Below are positions 27,875 to 36,007 of a DNA stretch of 64,000 nucleotides, piece by piece. The DNA is from Flavobacteriales bacterium (GTDB lineage: Bacteria > Bacteroidota > Bacteroidia > UBA10329). The stretch spans positions 1 through 64,000 of the forward strand of contig WGMW01000007.1 of NCBI GenBank assembly GCA_016124845.1. The letters run 5' to 3'. The translations under genes were made by a program, and so were the position numbers. Within the stretch, counting starts at the first letter, position 1, and the number at the start of each line of letters is the position of its first letter. The notes under the pieces are model-generated. The model was not told where the DNA came from and did not search any database. It saw only the letters and a list, made by a program, of their open reading frames with translations.

Positions 27875-28930
27875 TTAAGAAGGCTGTTTCCTCATCCGAA
27901 AAACCATGATGATGCCCATGGAAAGGAACATGAGCAGAATGACCGCTCCATTGATGCCACCGAACCATTTTCGGGGATCCATGTCGCCCGTCAGGGAAGA
28001 GATGAGACGCCCGATCAACGTAAGTTGGAATACGACCCAAATAGCCCAAAGGATCGGATGAAATGGCCGCTGCGTGGTTTTGAGAATGGCGGGGAAAATG
28101 ATAGGTGCATGCGCCCAGATCATGGAAAAGGCAAAACCGAGAAAGAAGGTATGCAAATAGAGGTCGTAGAACAATGGGTTTGCAGGCAGCAGCGGAACTG
28201 TAAGACCGTGGAGCAGCAGCCAACAGTAACCGACCAACAAACCTGTTGCCACGTAGCGGTGAAACCCTGATTTTTTGATGCCAATGCGTGCCATATCGTA
28301 TTTCATCAGCCATAGCGCGGTAAGCACACTTGCCGTTCCCATCAGCGATCGACCAACTCCAGAATGAAATGGCATCGCAATTCCAGTAACAAGCATTGCC
28401 ATAAAAACCCAAAGCAAGGACTTGGCCCATTTGGAGATGTTGAGGTATCGGGTCAGTTCCATCCGTTCACCTACAATGGTCAGAAGGATGAAGCCGACCC
28501 ACCACGTTGAGCCTGCGGCAATGAGCCCCGTTCTGACCACCATCAGATTACCAATGAGCCAACAGACGCCACCTGCCAAAAGCAGATACCAATACGCATC
28601 GCGATGCTTTTTCAGTTGAATGAAATACACTCCGAGCAGACCAATATTCCCAAACATCAACAGGCCAATACCAACTTGCTTTTGTCCAAGTAAGAATGCA
28701 ATGGCCGATAGCGCTGACGTGGCGGGAAAGACCCGCCAAACCGTTGATGGCATTGAAACCGTGCGTTCCAATGTGATGAGCGTGCCCAAGAAACTACCCG
28801 TCATCAGCAATCCATGTACGTAGCCCGTTTCAGGAATATTGATCTGCCAACCCAGCCGTATCCAACCACCGATCATTCCAATGATCAACCCGAACAGAAC
28901 GAACGGCAGCGACAGCAAACGGAGTTTCAT
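27875..28930 (-). CDS. Polytopic membrane protein, NnrS-like by layout
   Basis: This 351-residue protein has about ten to eleven TM helices and almost no soluble parts. Motifs: GYVHGLLMTGSFLGTLITLER (helix 2), WWVGFILLTIVGERMELTRYL, and FLGFAFSMIWAHAPIIFPAIL, each with histidine or charged residues within helices. NnrS, a haem-copper membrane protein of NO tolerance, has a comparable helix-2 histidine and a conserved R/E helix. The match is by pattern only and may be wrong. The start at 28930 overlaps the upstream gene by four bases (a longer frame to 29014 lies within it). Together with its partner and ric it probably belongs to the NO-response set. Confidence 0.55.
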   Translation of the reverse strand: MKLRLLSLPFVLFGLIIGMIGGWIRLGWQINIPETGYVHGLLMTGSFLGTLITLERTVSMPSTVWRVFPATSALSAIAFLLGQKQVGIGLLMFGNIGLLGVYFIQLKKHRDAYWYLLLAGGVCWLIGNLMVVRTGLIAAGSTWWVGFILLTIVGERMELTRYLNISKWAKSLLWVFMAMLVTGIAMPFHSGVGRSLMGTASVLTALWLMKYDMARIGIKKSGFHRYVATGLLVGYCWLLLHGLTVPLLPANPLFYDLYLHTFFLGFAFSMIWAHAPIIFPAILKTTQRPFHPILWAIWVVFQLTLIGRLISSLTGDMDPRKWFGGINGAVILLMFLSMGIIMVFRMRKQPS

Positions 28931-30165
28931 GGTATAGATGTTCGTATACGGAGCGTTGAAAGGAATAGTGAAACCGTTCCGAGCAACAGAAAAATGCTGA
29001 ACGCAAGAATACATTCATTGTAAAACGGCCAAGCGGCAACTCCTTTCCAAATGGAAGCACCTTGAAAGAACAGCAGAAGTTCGGTTCCGAGAAGGCCAAT
29101 TCCGAGAGTTAGTAGGCCGAATCTGGTTGCTGAACGTGTAGCTTTCAAAACATCCAGATCGAGAAGAATAAACGCAATAAAACCTGTAATGATGCCAAGC
29201 ATTAACAGATGGATGAAACCTACAATGAACGGCCGTACTTCATAAGGCACAAGTGCAATTTCGGGACAGCTCAGCAGTAGCTGTCCAATTGATTTTACGA
29301 CCAGAGAACCGATCACTACCTGAGTGCAAGCCTTTTTCCAGCCTTCGATGTTTTCCAGTTTTGGGTGGATCTTTTGAAGAAAACCCAACAACAGAAAGGT
29401 AGCGCTCAATTGCAATCCTGCGCCCAAAAAATTGGTAGAGATCCCGAGATCAAAAGCAGCATATTCTGCCAATGGTAATCCGAACATGCCAATGGTAGAG
29501 AGTAGTAGCATGCCGAAGAACCACCTGAACTGATTGTTGCTCATTTCGATGTCTCTCTTTTTCAACCATTGCCAAAAAATGGCCGCAATGGAAAACAATA
29601 GCCATCCCTGAAATTGAAAGTGTAGGAAGAACTGAATGCATAAATGATAGGCATCTGTAAACCGCCCGATCTTAACCGCAACTGGTCCTAACGCATATAC
29701 CCCAAGCGTAGAGGTCATCATGAAAACAATGGCTGTGCGCAGTAACATGGTGGCTTGAATGCTGGCGGTTCTGGCGTTTTTCCAAACCAGCGTCAGAAAC
29801 CAGTAGCTGGAAAACAGGTGCAGCGTTGCGAATGAAATGGAAACGGATCCATATCCCTGAAAAGGAAAGCTTGCCATCATACCTATAACCCCTGTCTGCA
29901 ACACGATGAAAAGCCGTTTGTATCGTTTTCTGTTCCGCTCTTGTTCAGAGAGAAACAAATGCAGCAACAACCCGAAGATGGCGGTGTAGAGCCAACCCAT
30001 CATGGCGGTGTGCGAGTGGGCGTGTGTCATAGATCGGAAGTTCAGCCAAGGAAAATCCACAATGGCCGATGCACGCAAAAGCAATCCCATGGCTGCTGCA
30101 ACAATAAAGTTGAATAGTGCCACCTTTACCCATTGGTCTAAACGGAATACGGATGCCTTTATCAT
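28927..30165 (-). CDS. Twelve-helix membrane protein with transmembrane H-x-H motif
   Basis: This 412-residue protein is almost entirely transmembrane. The second helix carries SMTHAHSHTAMMGWLYTAIF, and a later helix reads AYHLCIQFFLHFQFQGWLLF, so several histidines face the membrane interior. The AHSH block is strikingly like the haem-ligand helix of the cbb3-like subunit encoded at 33652-35448 (NVAHSHMTMYGII), which suggests haem binding and a distant relationship to haem-copper oxidase or NnrS proteins. It overlaps the next gene by four bases and follows ric after 73 bases. Function unknown; a role in NO or low-oxygen physiology is inferred from context. Confidence 0.6.
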   Translation of the reverse strand: MIKASVFRLDQWVKVALFNFIVAAAMGLLLRASAIVDFPWLNFRSMTHAHSHTAMMGWLYTAIFGLLLHLFLSEQERNRKRYKRLFIVLQTGVIGMMASFPFQGYGSVSISFATLHLFSSYWFLTLVWKNARTASIQATMLLRTAIVFMMTSTLGVYALGPVAVKIGRFTDAYHLCIQFFLHFQFQGWLLFSIAAIFWQWLKKRDIEMSNNQFRWFFGMLLLSTIGMFGLPLAEYAAFDLGISTNFLGAGLQLSATFLLLGFLQKIHPKLENIEGWKKACTQVVIGSLVVKSIGQLLLSCPEIALVPYEVRPFIVGFIHLLMLGIITGFIAFILLDLDVLKATRSATRFGLLTLGIGLLGTELLLFFQGASIWKGVAAWPFYNECILAFSIFLLLGTVSLFLSTLRIRTSIP

Positions 30166-30238: not shown

Positions 30239-30967
30239 TCAAATTGTTGTTTGCCCAGCTTCCAATTCCAAGGCTTTTGGGAACAGAATATTGTTCTCCA
30301 GATGGATGTGAAGATGAAGATCTTCTTGAAACTCCTTGAGCAGATGGTAAGTCACGCGCCACGTGTTGCACGCATATTCTGGCGGATTGAAACCGTTGGT
30401 CAATTCGCTCATGGTCTCAAAGCGTTGGCCCTCATCTTCATGCTCCGCTTTCATCATTGCAATAGGGTTGTTGACTGTGCCAAACGATGGTTTCGCCAAC
30501 GGCTCTCCCGTATCAAGTGCCAATTGCATTCTCTTGATGAACGGGAACAGGATCAGCTCTTCTTTCTTCATGTGTTGTGCAAGGTTTCCAGCGCTTTCGT
30601 AGAATAATTCACGAACCACCAAAAGGTAGGGATGCTCATTGCCGTGCACCTTCGCCACTTTATCAAGGAATGGTTTCAATTCTTCCGTGGCTTGTTCCAC
30701 ATAGGTATGATGTCGGTCTTCAATGTGATTGGCCAATCGATCCAATTTCCAAGTGGCGTAATCAACATCCGTCTTGGTTTGCCTTTCAGCAACCTGAGCC
30801 AGTTCGTTTATCAGCGGTTCGGGATCAATTCCTTTTGCAAGGCAAGCATCTTCCACCGTTCGGCCGCCACGGCAACAGAAGTCGATGCCATATTTCTTGA
30901 AGATTGGTGCGGTGCGATAATTCTCAGCCACCATTTCACCAATGGTCTTTTCGTCTGTAACGGTCAT
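30239..30967 (-). CDS. ric: Ric/ScdA/YtfE iron-sulfur cluster repair di-iron protein
   Basis: This 242-residue cytosolic protein repairs Fe-S clusters damaged by NO or oxidants. The ScdA N-terminal domain has KKYGIDFCCRGGRTVEDAC with C31-C32. The hemerythrin-like domain (about 75-235) carries the ligand helices ANHIEDRHHTYVEQ, KVHGNEHPYLLVVRELF, HMKKEELILFPFIKRM, KAEHEDEGQRFE and HIHLENNILFPKALEL, so all expected His/Glu ligands are present. The start is the ATG at 30967: a -7 box at 30992-30999 predicts transcription from about 30985, downstream of the alternative ATG at 30994. The control region combines a Crp-type site and an Rrf2-type palindrome. Confidence 0.92.
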   Translation of the reverse strand: MTVTDEKTIGEMVAENYRTAPIFKKYGIDFCCRGGRTVEDACLAKGIDPEPLINELAQVAERQTKTDVDYATWKLDRLANHIEDRHHTYVEQATEELKPFLDKVAKVHGNEHPYLLVVRELFYESAGNLAQHMKKEELILFPFIKRMQLALDTGEPLAKPSFGTVNNPIAMMKAEHEDEGQRFETMSELTNGFNPPEYACNTWRVTYHLLKEFQEDLHLHIHLENNILFPKALELEAGQTTI

Positions 30968-30991: not shown

Positions 30992-31057
30992 CAAAAGTAG
31001 GTAGCGATTTTATTAATCGGATGATTTTATCCGAATAATAAATATGATATATATCAT
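30992..31057 (-). promoter_or_regulatory. ric promoter with Rrf2-type operator and Crp/Fnr-type site
   Basis: Reading leftwards on the minus strand: ATGATATATATCAT, a perfect 14-bp palindrome at 31044-31057; then the 18-bp palindrome TCGGATAAAATCATCCGA at 31017-31034; then the -7 box TACTTTTG at 30992-30999. If transcription starts near 30985, the centres are at about -65 and -41. That places an activator site upstream and a repressor site over the -33 region. The TCGGA palindrome and its A/T flanks recur before the Rrf2 gene (35973-35990). Confidence 0.65.
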
Positions 31058-31072
31058 TTGATCAGGAGTGTC

Positions 31073-31537
31073 CTATTTCCAGAATTCATCGTCCCAATCC
31101 TCGCAAGCTGGAATTTCCTGATGATGCTGATCAATGGTCTGTAATTGTGCTTCCGAAGCAACTTTTTGAATCTCAGGGAAAAGCACTCGCTCTTCAAATC
31201 GGATATGTGCATCCAGCTCTTCTTCGATCTTGCTTAGGGCTTTTCTAACATTTGATGTGTCAGTAAACAATCGCAGCAGTCTACGATGCTCGGCCAAGGC
31301 CTGCTGTACGAGTTTGTTTTCTGGGCCGAGAATAGGAAACACGAACTTCTCCTCATCTTCGAAATGCTGCACCAGACTGTGCTCATAGAAGTGATCCACG
31401 TATTTCTTGATGCGCCCATCATCAATACTATTCCTCAATCCTTTGCCAATCTTCCAGCAGAGTAGCAGTCCGTGGTGATGCTCTCGGCTGAACGGCTGAA
31501 GTTCCTTTTGGCGTTTCAGAGGCTTGGATGTACTCAT
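31073..31537 (-). CDS. Hemerythrin HHE-domain protein
   Basis: This 154-residue soluble protein has one four-helix hemerythrin-like domain. Likely iron ligands are in SREHHHGLLLCWKIG, FYEHSLVQHFEDEEKFVFP, AEHRRLLRLF and AHIRFEERVLFPEIQ. Such proteins bind oxygen or NO, or store iron; in this setting NO handling is likely. It ends the six-gene run that begins with the cbb3-like subunit at 35448, with an 18-base gap from the haemoglobin gene. The ric promoter begins directly after it. Confidence 0.85.
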   Translation of the reverse strand: MSTSKPLKRQKELQPFSREHHHGLLLCWKIGKGLRNSIDDGRIKKYVDHFYEHSLVQHFEDEEKFVFPILGPENKLVQQALAEHRRLLRLFTDTSNVRKALSKIEEELDAHIRFEERVLFPEIQKVASEAQLQTIDQHHQEIPACEDWDDEFWK

Positions 31538-31555
31538 GTCGGAAGGTGTATGGGT

Positions 31556-31945
31556 TCAAGCTAATGGGGTTGACGAACTGTTCCTATAATAGTCAATTTT
31601 ATAGTTGAACATCTCAGCCATCTGTCTTGCACGCCATTTGGCTTCTTCAGCCCGTTCGCCATCAAAGTGTTTGTCAACGGTAGCAAAGAACAATTTGAGC
31701 CAGCGCTCAAAATGCAGTTTTTCAACAGGCAACTTAGCGTGGGGCGGAAACGGACTTCCGTGATAAGTGTGTTCTTCAAGTAGCACCGTTTGCCAAAACC
31801 GGTACATTTTCTCCAGATGCTCGGGCCAACGGTCTTGTATCACTTCATCGAAAATCGGTCCGATGAGTTCATCCTTACGAACGCTGTCGTAAAACAGGTC
31901 CACCAATAGTTTGATGTCTTCTATATGCGCAATGTCTTTTTTCAT
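31556..31945 (-). CDS. Group III truncated haemoglobin
   Basis: This 129-residue protein follows the group III 2/2-globin pattern: LVDLFYDSVRKDELIGPIFD, WPEHLEKMYRFWQTVLLEE, YHGSPFPPHAKLPVEKLHFE (the proximal histidine region), RWLKLFFATVDKHFDGERAE. These globins bind O2 and NO. The start at 31945 overlaps the stop of the upstream membrane protein (TAATG), so it is translationally coupled, and the longer frame to 32038 is rejected. Within the NO-linked operon it is likely a scavenger. Confidence 0.85.
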   Translation of the reverse strand: MKKDIAHIEDIKLLVDLFYDSVRKDELIGPIFDEVIQDRWPEHLEKMYRFWQTVLLEEHTYHGSPFPPHAKLPVEKLHFERWLKLFFATVDKHFDGERAEEAKWRARQMAEMFNYKIDYYRNSSSTPLA

Positions 31946-32394
31946 TAGAAAAAAGAGTTGTAAAGGTCCGGTGTCAAATAGGTGGTCAGGTAGAATATTG
32001 CAAAAGCCGTAAAAGAGATAACCAATGCCCAAACCCAAGCGGGAATGGCCTTTGGTGTTTCCGAACCGTTGATGATGAATTGATCACTCGTCTCACTTCC
32101 GTAGGCATTGACAGTTATGGGTATTTGCGTGTCGATCACTTCGTTGTCTGAAAGTCCTACAACGACAATCTCTGGTCCGTTTCTTACCTCAAACGGAATA
32201 ACCCGAATGCCTTCTACACCGCTGCTACTTTTAGCAACGATCTTGAGCTGGTGTTTGCCATCCGGTATTTTGGTGGTGTCGAGCGTGAACTTTACGGGTG
32301 GTTTGAACTCCCCGAAAGGTGTTGGTGCATCATCCAGAAATAGACGCACGTTTCTGTTGTCCTCCAATTGTTCAGAACCCTTCATTGGTAACAA
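31945..32394 (-). CDS. Tail-anchored Ig-like membrane protein of the cbb3-like operon
   Basis: This 149-residue protein has no signal peptide. A beta-rich domain (about 15-95; RLFLDDAPTPFGEFKPPVKF, IPDGKHQLKIVAKSSSGVEG) precedes a C-terminal TM helix (IPAWVWALVISFTAFAIFYLTTY, split here only by description) and a short tail. It overlaps the upstream small protein by 23 bases and the globin by one, so it is surely part of the operon. It may be an accessory subunit of the oxidase; not a family I can name. Confidence 0.6.
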   Translation of the reverse strand: MLPMKGSEQLEDNRNVRLFLDDAPTPFGEFKPPVKFTLDTTKIPDGKHQLKIVAKSSSGVEGIRVIPFEVRNGPEIVVVGLSDNEVIDTQIPITVNAYGSETSDQFIINGSETPKAIPAWVWALVISFTAFAIFYLTTYLTPDLYNSFF

Positions 32395-32635
32395 TATTTT
32401 TAATGTGTTCGGGGTTGTTTTCGTTCGGTTTTACGAGGAATTTGATAGCTAAACCTAAAGCTACAGCCACTATGAGAATGGCACTTCCCATGATCAAATA
32501 GTCAACCGTTCCATCAGGCCCGGCACCATGCGTGAATTCTTGTAGCACTCTCGGTTGGTTTCGCTTGCACACTTCGCAAGCAAATGCGGTTGCCGATGAC
32601 AGGAAAAGAATCAGTGAGACAATCGGTTTTTTCAT
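32372..32635 (-). CDS. Small Cys-motif membrane protein of the cbb3-like operon
   Basis: This 87-residue protein has a signal peptide (MKKPIVSLILFLSSATAFA), immediately followed by CEVCKRNQPRVL, whose C-x-x-C lies at the mature N terminus, then one TM helix (about 44-68). The exported CxxC could bind a metal or haem, or act as a thiol. It overlaps the cytochrome subunit stop by four bases and the next gene by 23. Probable accessory or assembly subunit; an inference from position. Confidence 0.6.
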   Translation of the reverse strand: MKKPIVSLILFLSSATAFACEVCKRNQPRVLQEFTHGAGPDGTVDYLIMGSAILIVAVALGLAIKFLVKPNENNPEHIKNIVTNEGF

Positions 32636-33648
32636 GGTTGTTCGCTCATTACCAGTTCTCGGATTTTGGTTACTTCTTCAACACTTACTTTTCGGGCACG
32701 ATTGCCCCAACTGCTGCGTTCGTGGTTCATTATCGCGGTAATTTCTTTATCGTTGAGTTGAGCCGCGAAACTTGGCATTTGGCCGTAATCCGGGCGGGCG
32801 TCATATCCCTGAAGAATAATTCGGATCAACGTTTCGGGATCTTCATCGTTTATAATGCTACTGCCTGCAAGTGGGGGAAATGCACCTGGCAGACCTTTTC
32901 CTGTTGCTTGATGACAGGCTGCGCAGGTATTCATGAACAGGTTTTCTCCGTCAGGAAGGTCATCTGTCTGTTGCTCTTCGCTTTTGTCACTCTTTTTAGT
33001 CTCGTCTTTCTTCTTTTTCATTGGAATGAACGATGAAGCACTTGGCATTTCGGCTTGTTTCAGCGATTGTAGATAGGCAACCAGATCAAGTGCTTTTTCC
33101 GTGGCCGTGATCTTTTTTCCTGTTTGGTTAAAATGCGTCTTTCCAACTGGAACTATCACATCGTCCTCGGTAATAAGTGCCTCGTCTTTCGCTTCGAATA
33201 ACCACGGGTAAGAAGGCATAATAGATGCCTCTACCACAGCCCGTGGATTGTAGAGATGTATCAGATGCCAATCGATACCGGGTTGCCGTTTCCCAATATT
33301 GGTCAGGTCAGGCCCCGTACGCTCGCTGCCGAGCAACGAGGGTGACTGTCGCAGAATGCCCATTCGCTGCTTGTTGTAGAAGTAGTCGGAAGGAATTGAA
33401 GGGCGGTCTCCCCACATCTTGTCCATTTCAATGCCTCTAACCTGTTGAGTATGACACGCCACACAGCCTTCAGAAATGTATGTTTCGAGGCCTCTGCGTT
33501 CTGCTGCGCTTAGCGGTTTTTGATCGGGCAATGGTTGTACATCTTGCATCTGCGAAGCAGGAATAATGGCAATCCCTGTACTCAATAACACAAATCCGAG
33601 AATGGCCGTCCGTACGAGTGCTCTATGATCTTTATGGAAATTGAACAT
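32632..33648 (-). CDS. ccoO: cbb3-type oxidase subunit II fused to a second cytochrome c domain
   Basis: This 338-residue membrane-anchored dihaem protein has an N-terminal TM helix (12-32). A CcoO/FixO-like domain follows with haem motif CVACH (62-66), RGIEMDKMWGDRPSIPSDYF and GPDLTNIGKR. A charged K/E-rich linker (about 211-230) connects a second cytochrome c domain with CAACH (242-246) and a methionine ligand in YGQMPSF. It therefore combines CcoO- and CcoP-like functions in one chain. It begins three bases after the catalytic subunit gene. No separate ccoP, ccoG, ccoH or ccoS is present. Confidence 0.8.
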   Translation of the reverse strand: MFNFHKDHRALVRTAILGFVLLSTGIAIIPASQMQDVQPLPDQKPLSAAERRGLETYISEGCVACHTQQVRGIEMDKMWGDRPSIPSDYFYNKQRMGILRQSPSLLGSERTGPDLTNIGKRQPGIDWHLIHLYNPRAVVEASIMPSYPWLFEAKDEALITEDDVIVPVGKTHFNQTGKKITATEKALDLVAYLQSLKQAEMPSASSFIPMKKKKDETKKSDKSEEQQTDDLPDGENLFMNTCAACHQATGKGLPGAFPPLAGSSIINDEDPETLIRIILQGYDARPDYGQMPSFAAQLNDKEITAIMNHERSSWGNRARKVSVEEVTKIRELVMSEQP

Positions 33649-33651
33649 GTC

Positions 33652-35448
33652 TTAGGCGTTTACAGTTTTCAATTGATGAACAGAAACTGTCTCAGACGAT
33701 TTTCGGACCATCAAATAGAAATTATAGGCGAAAACCAAGTGAGATAAGAACATCAGAGACCCACCAACAGCTCGCCAGATCCAGTACTTTTTCATCAGGA
33801 TGACCGATTGAATGAACGGATGTCCATCCAACCAACTGATGCCTTTGAGTGTGCCTCCCGCCATCATCGAGATCATGTAAGCAAACAGTCCGATGAAGGC
33901 CATCCAGAAATGCGCACCCACCAATATCTGAGGTGGTTCTTTGCCGCGTAGCTTCGGTACAATGGTGTAAATGCATGCCCACAGTATGAAGGTGATGATG
34001 CCGTACATGGTCATGTGAGAATGGGCCACATTGAAGTCGGTGAAATGCCACACGTAATTAGTAAATCGGAATGCCTGAAAACTTCCCTGAGAGGATCCTA
34101 CAAAGTAGAAAACCACCCCTACCAAGAAGAAGGGTAGTACATAGCTTTTAGAAATATGGCTCCAACTTCCTCGCATGGTCATCAGAAAGTTGGTGCTTCC
34201 CGCAATAACTGGAATGAACATACCTGCACTAAATACAATGGCCACCGTCTGCAACCACCAGGGTAATGGGCTGAATACGAAATGGTGCGTGCCTATAAGT
34301 GTGTAGAACAACATTTGCGTCCAGAATGCTAACACACCTAAAGAGTAGGAGTAAATAGGCTTGTTGAGGGTAGAGGGCAGGTAATAATATGTAAGCCCCA
34401 AAGTGAAGGTCATGAACCACATGCCAACGCCTTGGTGCATGTAATATCCTTGAATGACGGTTTCGCCCAAACCGTTCTGGAACCAAGGCATGTAACCGAT
34501 AATGCTCAGAATGATGGTCCAACCGAGAGCGGCCAGAATAAACCAGTTAGAGATGTATATCTCAGAGATTTTTCGGCTGGCCACGGTACGGTAAAAATTT
34601 CGAAAAGTGAGAATGAGCCCCAAGGCAAAGAGCAACATGACCGGCCAGATGTATTCGCGGTATTCGCCACCACCGTTATTGATACCAGACATGAGACAGA
34701 GATTGCCAAGCAGAACTGAAAGGTTTATCAATCCGAAGGCAAGCCAAGAACGTTTGTAGCTGTGTAGGTTGATGTTTGAGGTTCGGGTGATCACGAAATG
34801 ACCAAGACCTATCATGGCCAAAGATCCCCATCCCCAGAATACGGTGTTTGTGTGTACTGGGCGTAATCTCCCGAACGAAAGCCAAGAAACGCTATCCAGC
34901 TCCGGCCAAACGAATTTCATTCCGAGGTATTGACCGATGGTGGTTCCGAAAACGAGCCAAAAAACAGCAGCACCCAAGTACCAGACAATCAATTTTGTGA
35001 GTTCTTCAGGTGTCTGAAGGTTGAGATCGGTCTTTTTTTTTTCGTCAAACAGCGGATTGTCCGGTTCGTTCTCTGCCCGTTTGATGAGACCTTGGTCGTC
35101 AGAAGCGGTCTGTTCGCCTCCAAGTTCAGATCCTTTTAATTTGTATTCAAGGGCTGCTTTTCTTTTAGAGAGAAGCTCATCGATTTCTGAGCCCTCCATC
35201 TCAAGAAGTTCTTTCTTGAATGCGAGTTTTGAAGTTTCATCGTCTTCTTTCTGAACCGTACGCAGATAGTTGCTCAATCGTGCAAGAACAATGATCACCG
35301 CAACCACTAAAACCAATGTTACGAGAATGATGGTGCCAATGATTCCAGGACTGGTGATCCAGTTTTCGGAAGTGACCTCTTGTGCTACCGAACGATTGGC
35401 TATTAGAAGTATGGCAGTTGCCAGAAGTGAGGAGAATGGTTTTTTCAT
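33652..35448 (-). CDS. ccoN: cbb3-type haem-copper oxidase catalytic subunit with N-terminal extension
   Basis: This 598-residue protein begins with a signal-like segment and one TM helix (35-56), then a charged ~85-residue linker, then a 12-helix CcoN-like core from about 150. Haem and copper ligands fit: H199 (low-spin haem), H338 (CuB), H388/H389, H476 and H478. Y382 lies 44 residues after H338, the same spacing as the cross-linked His207/Tyr251 pair I recall from Pseudomonas stutzeri CcoN, which favours O2 reduction over a NO reductase lacking Tyr. The N-terminal extension is not in standard CcoN. It heads the six-gene operon and follows the Rrf2 gene after 47 bases. Confidence 0.8.
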   Translation of the reverse strand: MKKPFSSLLATAILLIANRSVAQEVTSENWITSPGIIGTIILVTLVLVVAVIIVLARLSNYLRTVQKEDDETSKLAFKKELLEMEGSEIDELLSKRKAALEYKLKGSELGGEQTASDDQGLIKRAENEPDNPLFDEKKKTDLNLQTPEELTKLIVWYLGAAVFWLVFGTTIGQYLGMKFVWPELDSVSWLSFGRLRPVHTNTVFWGWGSLAMIGLGHFVITRTSNINLHSYKRSWLAFGLINLSVLLGNLCLMSGINNGGGEYREYIWPVMLLFALGLILTFRNFYRTVASRKISEIYISNWFILAALGWTIILSIIGYMPWFQNGLGETVIQGYYMHQGVGMWFMTFTLGLTYYYLPSTLNKPIYSYSLGVLAFWTQMLFYTLIGTHHFVFSPLPWWLQTVAIVFSAGMFIPVIAGSTNFLMTMRGSWSHISKSYVLPFFLVGVVFYFVGSSQGSFQAFRFTNYVWHFTDFNVAHSHMTMYGIITFILWACIYTIVPKLRGKEPPQILVGAHFWMAFIGLFAYMISMMAGGTLKGISWLDGHPFIQSVILMKKYWIWRAVGGSLMFLSHLVFAYNFYLMVRKSSETVSVHQLKTVNA

Positions 35449-35495
35449 ATCGGAATAAAAGACCTTTTTGTCTTATTTATGATTAAATTTTTTTT

Positions 35496-35930
35496 TTAGC
35501 GTTTGAGGCAGGTGATGCCATCCACAAGATCTGTTGTAAGTTGATCGAGAGTAGTGCTCTCCAGCATCTGCTTCAGCTCATTGCGAATTACCATGAACTG
35601 ATCGTGAAGTGGGCATGGCTTTTTCGCATTACATTTTTCCAAACCAAGTCCACAGCCATTGTAAATCGCATCTCCATCAATTGCATCAACAATCTGACTG
35701 AGCTTTACAGAATGCATCTGTTGGTCATCCACATCAAAACCGCCATGCAAACCTTTGGTGGAGCGCAACACGCCATTACGGGCCAGTTGTTGCAGAATTT
35801 TGGCTGTGAATGCTTCTGGCGAGCTAATACTGGAACTGATTTCCTTTAAACTGACCCGTTTGCCTTCGGCAGATTGCTGCGCAACGTAAAGCGTTGCCCG
35901 AATACCATATTCACATGCCTTAGAAAACAT
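35496..35930 (-). CDS. Rrf2-family Fe-S regulator, NsrR-like
   Basis: This 144-residue protein has an N-terminal winged helix (FSKACEYGIRATLYVAQQS; recognition region SPEAFTAKILQQLARNG) and wing STKGLHGGF. Three cysteines, C93, C100 and C106 (GCGLGLEKCNAKKPC), are placed as in NsrR/IscR and should hold an Fe-S cluster. NsrR senses NO. An 18-bp palindrome lies 43 bases upstream of its start and again in the ric promoter, so it probably represses itself and the NO-response genes. Genes downstream (cbb3-like operon) may be cotranscribed with it. Confidence 0.85.
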   Translation of the reverse strand: MFSKACEYGIRATLYVAQQSAEGKRVSLKEISSSISSPEAFTAKILQQLARNGVLRSTKGLHGGFDVDDQQMHSVKLSQIVDAIDGDAIYNGCGLGLEKCNAKKPCPLHDQFMVIRNELKQMLESTTLDQLTTDLVDGITCLKR

Positions 35931-35972
35931 TTGCTCGTTTTGGTGGTGGCAAATGTATCATCTCACATTTAA

Positions 35973-35990
35973 TCGGACAAATTTATCCGA
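35973..35990. promoter_or_regulatory. Rrf2-type operator TCGGACAAATTTATCCGA
   Basis: This 18-bp inverted repeat has arms TCGGA/TCCGA and matches the one at 31017-31034, including the flanks (TTAA before, ATAAT after). It lies between the nosY stop and the Rrf2 start, so autoregulation of the Rrf2/cbb3-like operon is the simplest reading. Confidence 0.65.
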
Positions 35991-36007
35991 ATAATTATTT
36001 TGATGTT

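Follow-up and report, generated by a model that had tools for sequence, protein, structure and literature searches.

Within a 64,000-nucleotide stretch of a Flavobacteriales contig, referred to as a whole as the window, two copies of a TCGGA...TCCGA palindrome precede a gene for an Rrf2 regulator and the Fe-S cluster repair gene ric. A sequence-only reading had taken them for operators of an NsrR-like Rrf2 protein, raising the question whether they serve this regulator and how closely it resembles NsrR. Our analysis makes it probable that the palindromes function as operators for the Rrf2 protein whose gene lies at 35496-35930, which would repress rrf2, ric, and an oxidase operon in an NO-responsive manner. 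The features concerned are as follows:

35968..35995 (core 35973-35990), minus strand: operator 1, 28-bp palindrome in the rrf2 promoter (matrix, covariance model)
35981-35978, minus strand: central TTTG of operator 1, putative -33 box of the rrf2 promoter
35950..35957, minus strand: putative -7 element TACATTTG of the rrf2 promoter, 20 bp downstream of the central TTTG of operator 1
35496..35930, minus strand: rrf2, 144-aa Rrf2 regulator, predicted repressor of the sites
35453..35480, minus strand: candidate operator 3, ATAAATAAGACAAAAAGGTCTTTTATTC, located after the rrf2 stop and before the oxidase ATG (matrix, leader arrangement)
33652..35448, minus strand: CcoN-like heme-copper oxidase subunit I, predicted target via operator 3
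32632..33648, minus strand: FixO/CcoO-like protein carrying a second cytochrome c domain, predicted to share the operon of the oxidase
31556..31945, minus strand: truncated (bacterial-like) globin, same direction
31073..31537, minus strand: hemerythrin-domain protein, own operator neither here nor in 38 relatives
31044..31057, no strand assigned: CRP/FNR-type palindrome ATGATATATATCAT, 83 bp upstream of the ric ATG
31012..31039 (core 31017-31034), minus strand: operator 2 in the ric promoter (matrix, covariance model)
30992..30999, minus strand: putative -7 element TACTTTTG of the ric promoter
30239..30967, minus strand: ric (ScdA/YtfE/DnrN), Fe-S cluster repair di-iron protein, predicted target of operator 2

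Palindromes in the window and in other Bacteroidota

Both palindromes were found at the positions given by the sequence-only reading, at 31017-31034 (TCGGATGATTTTATCCGA on the plus strand, TCGGATAAAATCATCCGA on the minus strand) and at 35973-35990 (TCGGACAAATTTATCCGA), and no other place in the window matches TCGGAYN6RTCCGA exactly. This pattern alone is weak evidence, since it occurs in five places genome-wide and in two of the reversed control. A weight matrix of 28 columns, built only from the rrf2 promoters of relatives with the window excluded, revealed scores of 28.1 bits at 35968, 18.6 bits at 31012, and 15.4 bits at 35453, the next best position reaching 1.8 bits; in 60 simulated windows, the maximum averaged 5.7 bits and the highest was 14.2 bits. 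A motif model derived from other genomes only ranked the two palindromes first and second in the 4.36 Mb genome, and a covariance model trained without the window sites gave them E-values of 1.9e-4 and 0.042. Genome-wide, everything else had E-values of at least 2.9, so that only these two were significant, and operator 3 was absent from this output. The latter, a weaker site upstream of the CcoN-like gene that the sequence-only reading had missed, lies about 18 bp from the oxidase ATG, and its weakness together with this position counts against our explanation. Its leader displays the order stop, A-tract, TTTRA, palindrome, and ATG, an arrangement found in many relatives as well, and it has its AAAAAGGTC / ATAAAGGTC form in common with an oxidase-linked site (L054) and a membrane-protein-linked site (L061).

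Relatives of the Rrf2 protein were detected in 47 of 99 related genomes and in at least 588 related stretches of species genomes. Based on the best 80 Bacteroidota loci, spanning Flavobacteriaceae, Cytophagales, Roseivirga, Lewinella, Chitinophagaceae, and others, the recurrence near Rrf2 and ric orthologues on which the sequence-only reading had made its proposal depend was clearly observed: in 77 of the 80 loci, the rrf2 ATG is preceded at 45-55 bp by the centre of a palindrome with the core GGAYAAATTTRTCC, and 43 of 59 ric copies are preceded by a site. The consensus of 68 distinct sites, TTAATTCGGATAAATTTGTCCGAATTAA, carries 26 bits with invariant columns G9, A10, T19, and C20, while only 27 of the 68 have C at column 7, and the proposed conservation of the A/T flanks reappears in the matrix of the relatives' sites. 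Scanning 1.35 Mb of loci with the matrix resulted in 165 matches of at least 15 bits and none in the reversed control. The TCGGA...TCCGA motif is thus real, but too narrow for a general search, as its outer TCG/CGA represents the variant of one lineage; since the outer bases vary, only 18 of 295 genomes of the class match TCGGAYAAAYTTRTCCGA with at most one mismatch, and the exact motif was rejected as the general operator. Genomes encoding a close Rrf2 protein contained strong sites in 16 of 26 cases, those without one in 3 of 72 (p=4e-9, a statistic that ignores kinship). Among distant Rrf2 paralogues, 7 of 14 showed a similar dyad. A second Rrf2 paralogue (33-38% identity; L062, L077, L110, and others) is encoded divergently from a cytochrome c gene and accompanied by the related palindrome GATTAAAAGATATTTTTATCCTTTTTAT.

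Predicted regulon, regulator, and signal

Apart from rrf2 and ric, sites precede 11 of 14 members of a cytochrome-c-matching gene class, the member checked being a nirK with a C-terminal cytochrome c, as well as 4 of 19 CcoN-like oxidase genes and 1 of 22 globin genes; they also occur upstream of genes for qNOR, DUF2249, and cytochrome c'-like proteins. In the same loci, no site was found upstream of nosZ (0/19), nosD (0/25), nosF (0/36), hemerythrin (0/38), or nnrS1 (0/39) genes, and the idea that these sites control the nos operon was discarded, as none precedes any nos gene. In a wider set of 20 genomes with a close Rrf2 protein, just 4 carried a site of at least 13 bits before ric itself, which counts against our explanation and rules out universal ric sites; in many of those lacking one, ric is located downstream of rrf2 in the same direction. 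A few strong sites before unrelated-looking genes were counted against the regulon explanation, namely those upstream of tryptophanase genes in two genomes and of a tryptophan 2,3-dioxygenase-like gene (L142, L148, L088). In Aestuariibaculum (L100, L123), qNOR occupies the slot after rrf2. Sites also precede the gene of an uncharacterised protein of 480-616 aa (L139, L078 around 4171), of which a fragment revealed no Pfam or NCBIfam match.

In regard to the window, ric was assigned with 244.9 bits (cut-off 204.7). Two membrane proteins after ric (27875-29014 and 28927-30165), presumably those called NnrS-like in the sequence-only reading, revealed no match to Pfam or NCBIfam, so that the label finds no support. 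The CcoN-like oxidase subunit, which has a long N-terminal extension, retains the active-site Tyr of cbb3 oxygen reductases despite its place in an NO-type operon, and may therefore not be an NO reductase.

The regulator itself belongs to the Rrf2 superfamily (PF02082, 82.0 bits, cut-off 30; TIGR00738, 83.6 bits, cut-off 73.3), and its AlphaFold model (pLDDT 83.6) matches the structures of RsrR, CymR, IscR, and NsrR. The residues C6, E7, D85, C93, C100, C106, and H109 are invariant in all 80 orthologues. Cys93, Cys100, and Cys106 align with the cysteines of E. coli NsrR and IscR, His109 with IscR His107, and Glu7 with NsrR Asp8. The three cysteines were correctly noted in the sequence-only reading, but their spacing is NsrR-like only in part, with X6-X5 compared to X4-X5 in E. 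coli NsrR and X5-X5 in E. coli IscR. The genome harbors only one other Rrf2 protein, with a single Cys. The base at operator column 7 varies together with Rrf2 residues 41, 43, and 58, a T in this column going along with changes there; this co-variation is no more than suggestive, because kinship between sequences would produce both and L032 breaks the pattern at residue 43.

Based on these residues, an Fe-S cluster would most likely be held by Cys93, Cys100, and Cys106 with His109 or Glu7 as the fourth ligand, and NO derived from nitrite reduction would most likely damage it, so that Rrf2 leaves the DNA. The same regulator and operators may instead answer to a signal other than NO, with the protein acting as an IscR- or RsrR-like sensor of Fe-S status, redox, or nitrite, and the sequence alone would fit any of these signals and NO alike. 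The Cys-x2-His motif and the second spacing of X5 are like those of IscR, the IscR and SUF-regulator profiles score 53 and 57 bits compared to 33 for NsrR, RsrR is the best fold match, and the GAC/GAT half-site presumably resembles that of IscR type 1 sites. However, every equivalog cut-off was missed, the window carries no IscR type 1 site, and the targets are ric, nirK, qNOR, DUF2249, globin, and cytochrome c'-like genes rather than isc or suf genes, so that we regard a signal other than NO as unlikely.

Promoter architecture and a probable second input at ric

Assignment of -33 and -7 elements follows the promoter consensus of Bacteroidota. In 65 of 77 rrf2 promoters, TAnnTTTG follows the central TTTG of the palindrome after 18-22 bp (expected 0.25), placing the palindrome over the -33 box, an arrangement that points to repression by occlusion and to autoregulation. 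In rrf2 sites, the G of this TTTG exceeds its mirror position (31 versus 13), while no such excess appears in sites after rrf2 (6 versus 14), as would be expected where the site serves the promoter in addition to binding the protein. As the sequence-only reading had stated, operator 2 overlaps the -33 region of the ric promoter, where the -7 element at 30992-30999 places it. Thus, an Rrf2 dimer is expected to bind the 28-bp site with its core GGAYAAAyTTRTCC and, seated on the -33 box, to block RNA polymerase, whereby rrf2 would repress itself; the ric site overlaps the -33 region too, and the weaker site is located in the leader of the oxidase operon. Release of Rrf2 would then switch on rrf2, ric for Fe-S repair, and the NO- or oxygen-reducing oxidase operon.

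The ric promoter additionally harbors the CRP/FNR-type palindrome at 31044-31057, the sole match to ATGATAYRTATCAT in its genome. Two genomes of the same genus (G004 and G007; L174 and L175) possess ric, with no Rrf2 protein detected; their ric promoters lack an Rrf2 site, yet display, 83-85 bp upstream of the ATG, a palindrome of the form ATGAT-N4-ATCAT that is conserved in position. It is likely that ric had an older CRP/FNR-type input to which Rrf2 control was added later, the former being a second, separate input. This site is conserved in the genus of the window only, and CRP/FNR sites were rejected as a general partner, as they are not enriched near the Rrf2 sites of relatives (0.16 versus 0.14 per kb).

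Since such a palindrome adjoins operator 2, one could suppose that another regulator, e.g., a CRP/FNR protein, binds the palindromes and that rrf2 is a mere neighbour. This seems very unlikely, as the sites co-occur with Rrf2 across genomes, operator and Rrf2 residues co-vary, and the two same-genus genomes without Rrf2 retain the FNR-type box and show no Rrf2 site. Even less credible are RNA hairpins or terminators: though the dyads are perfect and some directly follow the rrf2 stop, at rrf2 the dyad has its midpoint at the -33 box, ahead of the transcript, its centre and A/T flanks are conserved, and a G+C-rich stem with a T-run is missing. Chance, to which the five genomic occurrences of TCGGAYN6RTCCGA might point, is practically eliminated by the recurrence in relatives, the matrix and covariance-model scores, and the target-gene specificity.

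Comparison with known systems

The Rrf2 protein shares with NsrR, the NO-sensing Rrf2 repressor of Proteobacteria, Bacillus, and Streptomyces, its fold, three cysteines in the C-terminal half, an acidic residue at the D8 position (Glu7 here), and operators on ric/dnrN, norB, and nirK promoters. Its predicted targets ric, nirK, qNOR, globin, and DUF2249 correspond to the NO detoxification genes of an NsrR regulon, while hmp is not among the targets seen here. On the other hand, identity to NsrR is 22%, the first Cys spacing differs, and the NCBIfam NsrR profile resulted in only 33.1 bits (cut-off 182). As the sequence-only reading had anticipated, the motif GGATAAATTTATCC also differs from known NsrR sites: the canonical operator gATGyAT-N5-ATrCATc gave chance-level matches in the window and none at these promoters. 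The label NsrR-like thus holds for the regulon content, but neither for the family model nor for the first Cys spacing.

With IscR, it has the Rrf2 fold, the three cysteines plus a His in C-x2-H (the Cys3His ligand set, with His109 invariant in 80/80), and a GAC-like half-site in common. Differences are an identity of 23%, a first Cys spacing of X6 instead of X5, and an NCBIfam IscR score of 53.4 bits (cut-off 207.55); in the window, no IscR type 1 operator was found, and isc genes are not nearby. Streptomyces RsrR, which binds a [2Fe-2S] cluster via Glu/His and Cys ligands, gave the best match among solved structures, by Foldseek as well as by profile. Identity in this fold match is 21%, the surroundings differ, and the cluster ligands presumably differ as well.

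The 2005 NsrR regulon reconstruction deals with Proteobacteria, Bacillus, and Streptomyces and gives the motif gATGyAT-N5-ATrCATc; in its searched text, only HcpR is listed for Bacteroides (PMC1274295). Bacteroidota are major clade II N2O reducers (PMC12569097), and Rrf2 genes beside clade II nosZ were described from coastal metagenomes, the same kind of neighbourhood as here, presented in the available portion of that report without operator, regulon, or mechanism (PMC6264515). In the open-access literature searched, we found no description of this operator or of such a regulator of the Bacteroidota NO response.

Altogether, the view that the regulator works like NsrR largely holds, while membership in NsrR by sequence or operator is not supported, and Bacteroidota-specific NsrR-like Rrf2 regulator is the most fitting name for it. 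On balance, we lean towards the broader proposal that Bacteroidota possess an NO-responsive Rrf2 lineage of their own, distinct from both NsrR and IscR and characterized by C-X6-C-X5-C-X2-H plus invariant C6/E7 and by an operator merged with the -33 box of Bacteroidota promoters, which would form a widespread switch for denitrification and NO repair, layered in the genus of the window onto an older CRP/FNR-type control of ric. As the conserved operator occupies a defined promoter position, the regulon can be predicted across hundreds of genomes and put to a direct test.
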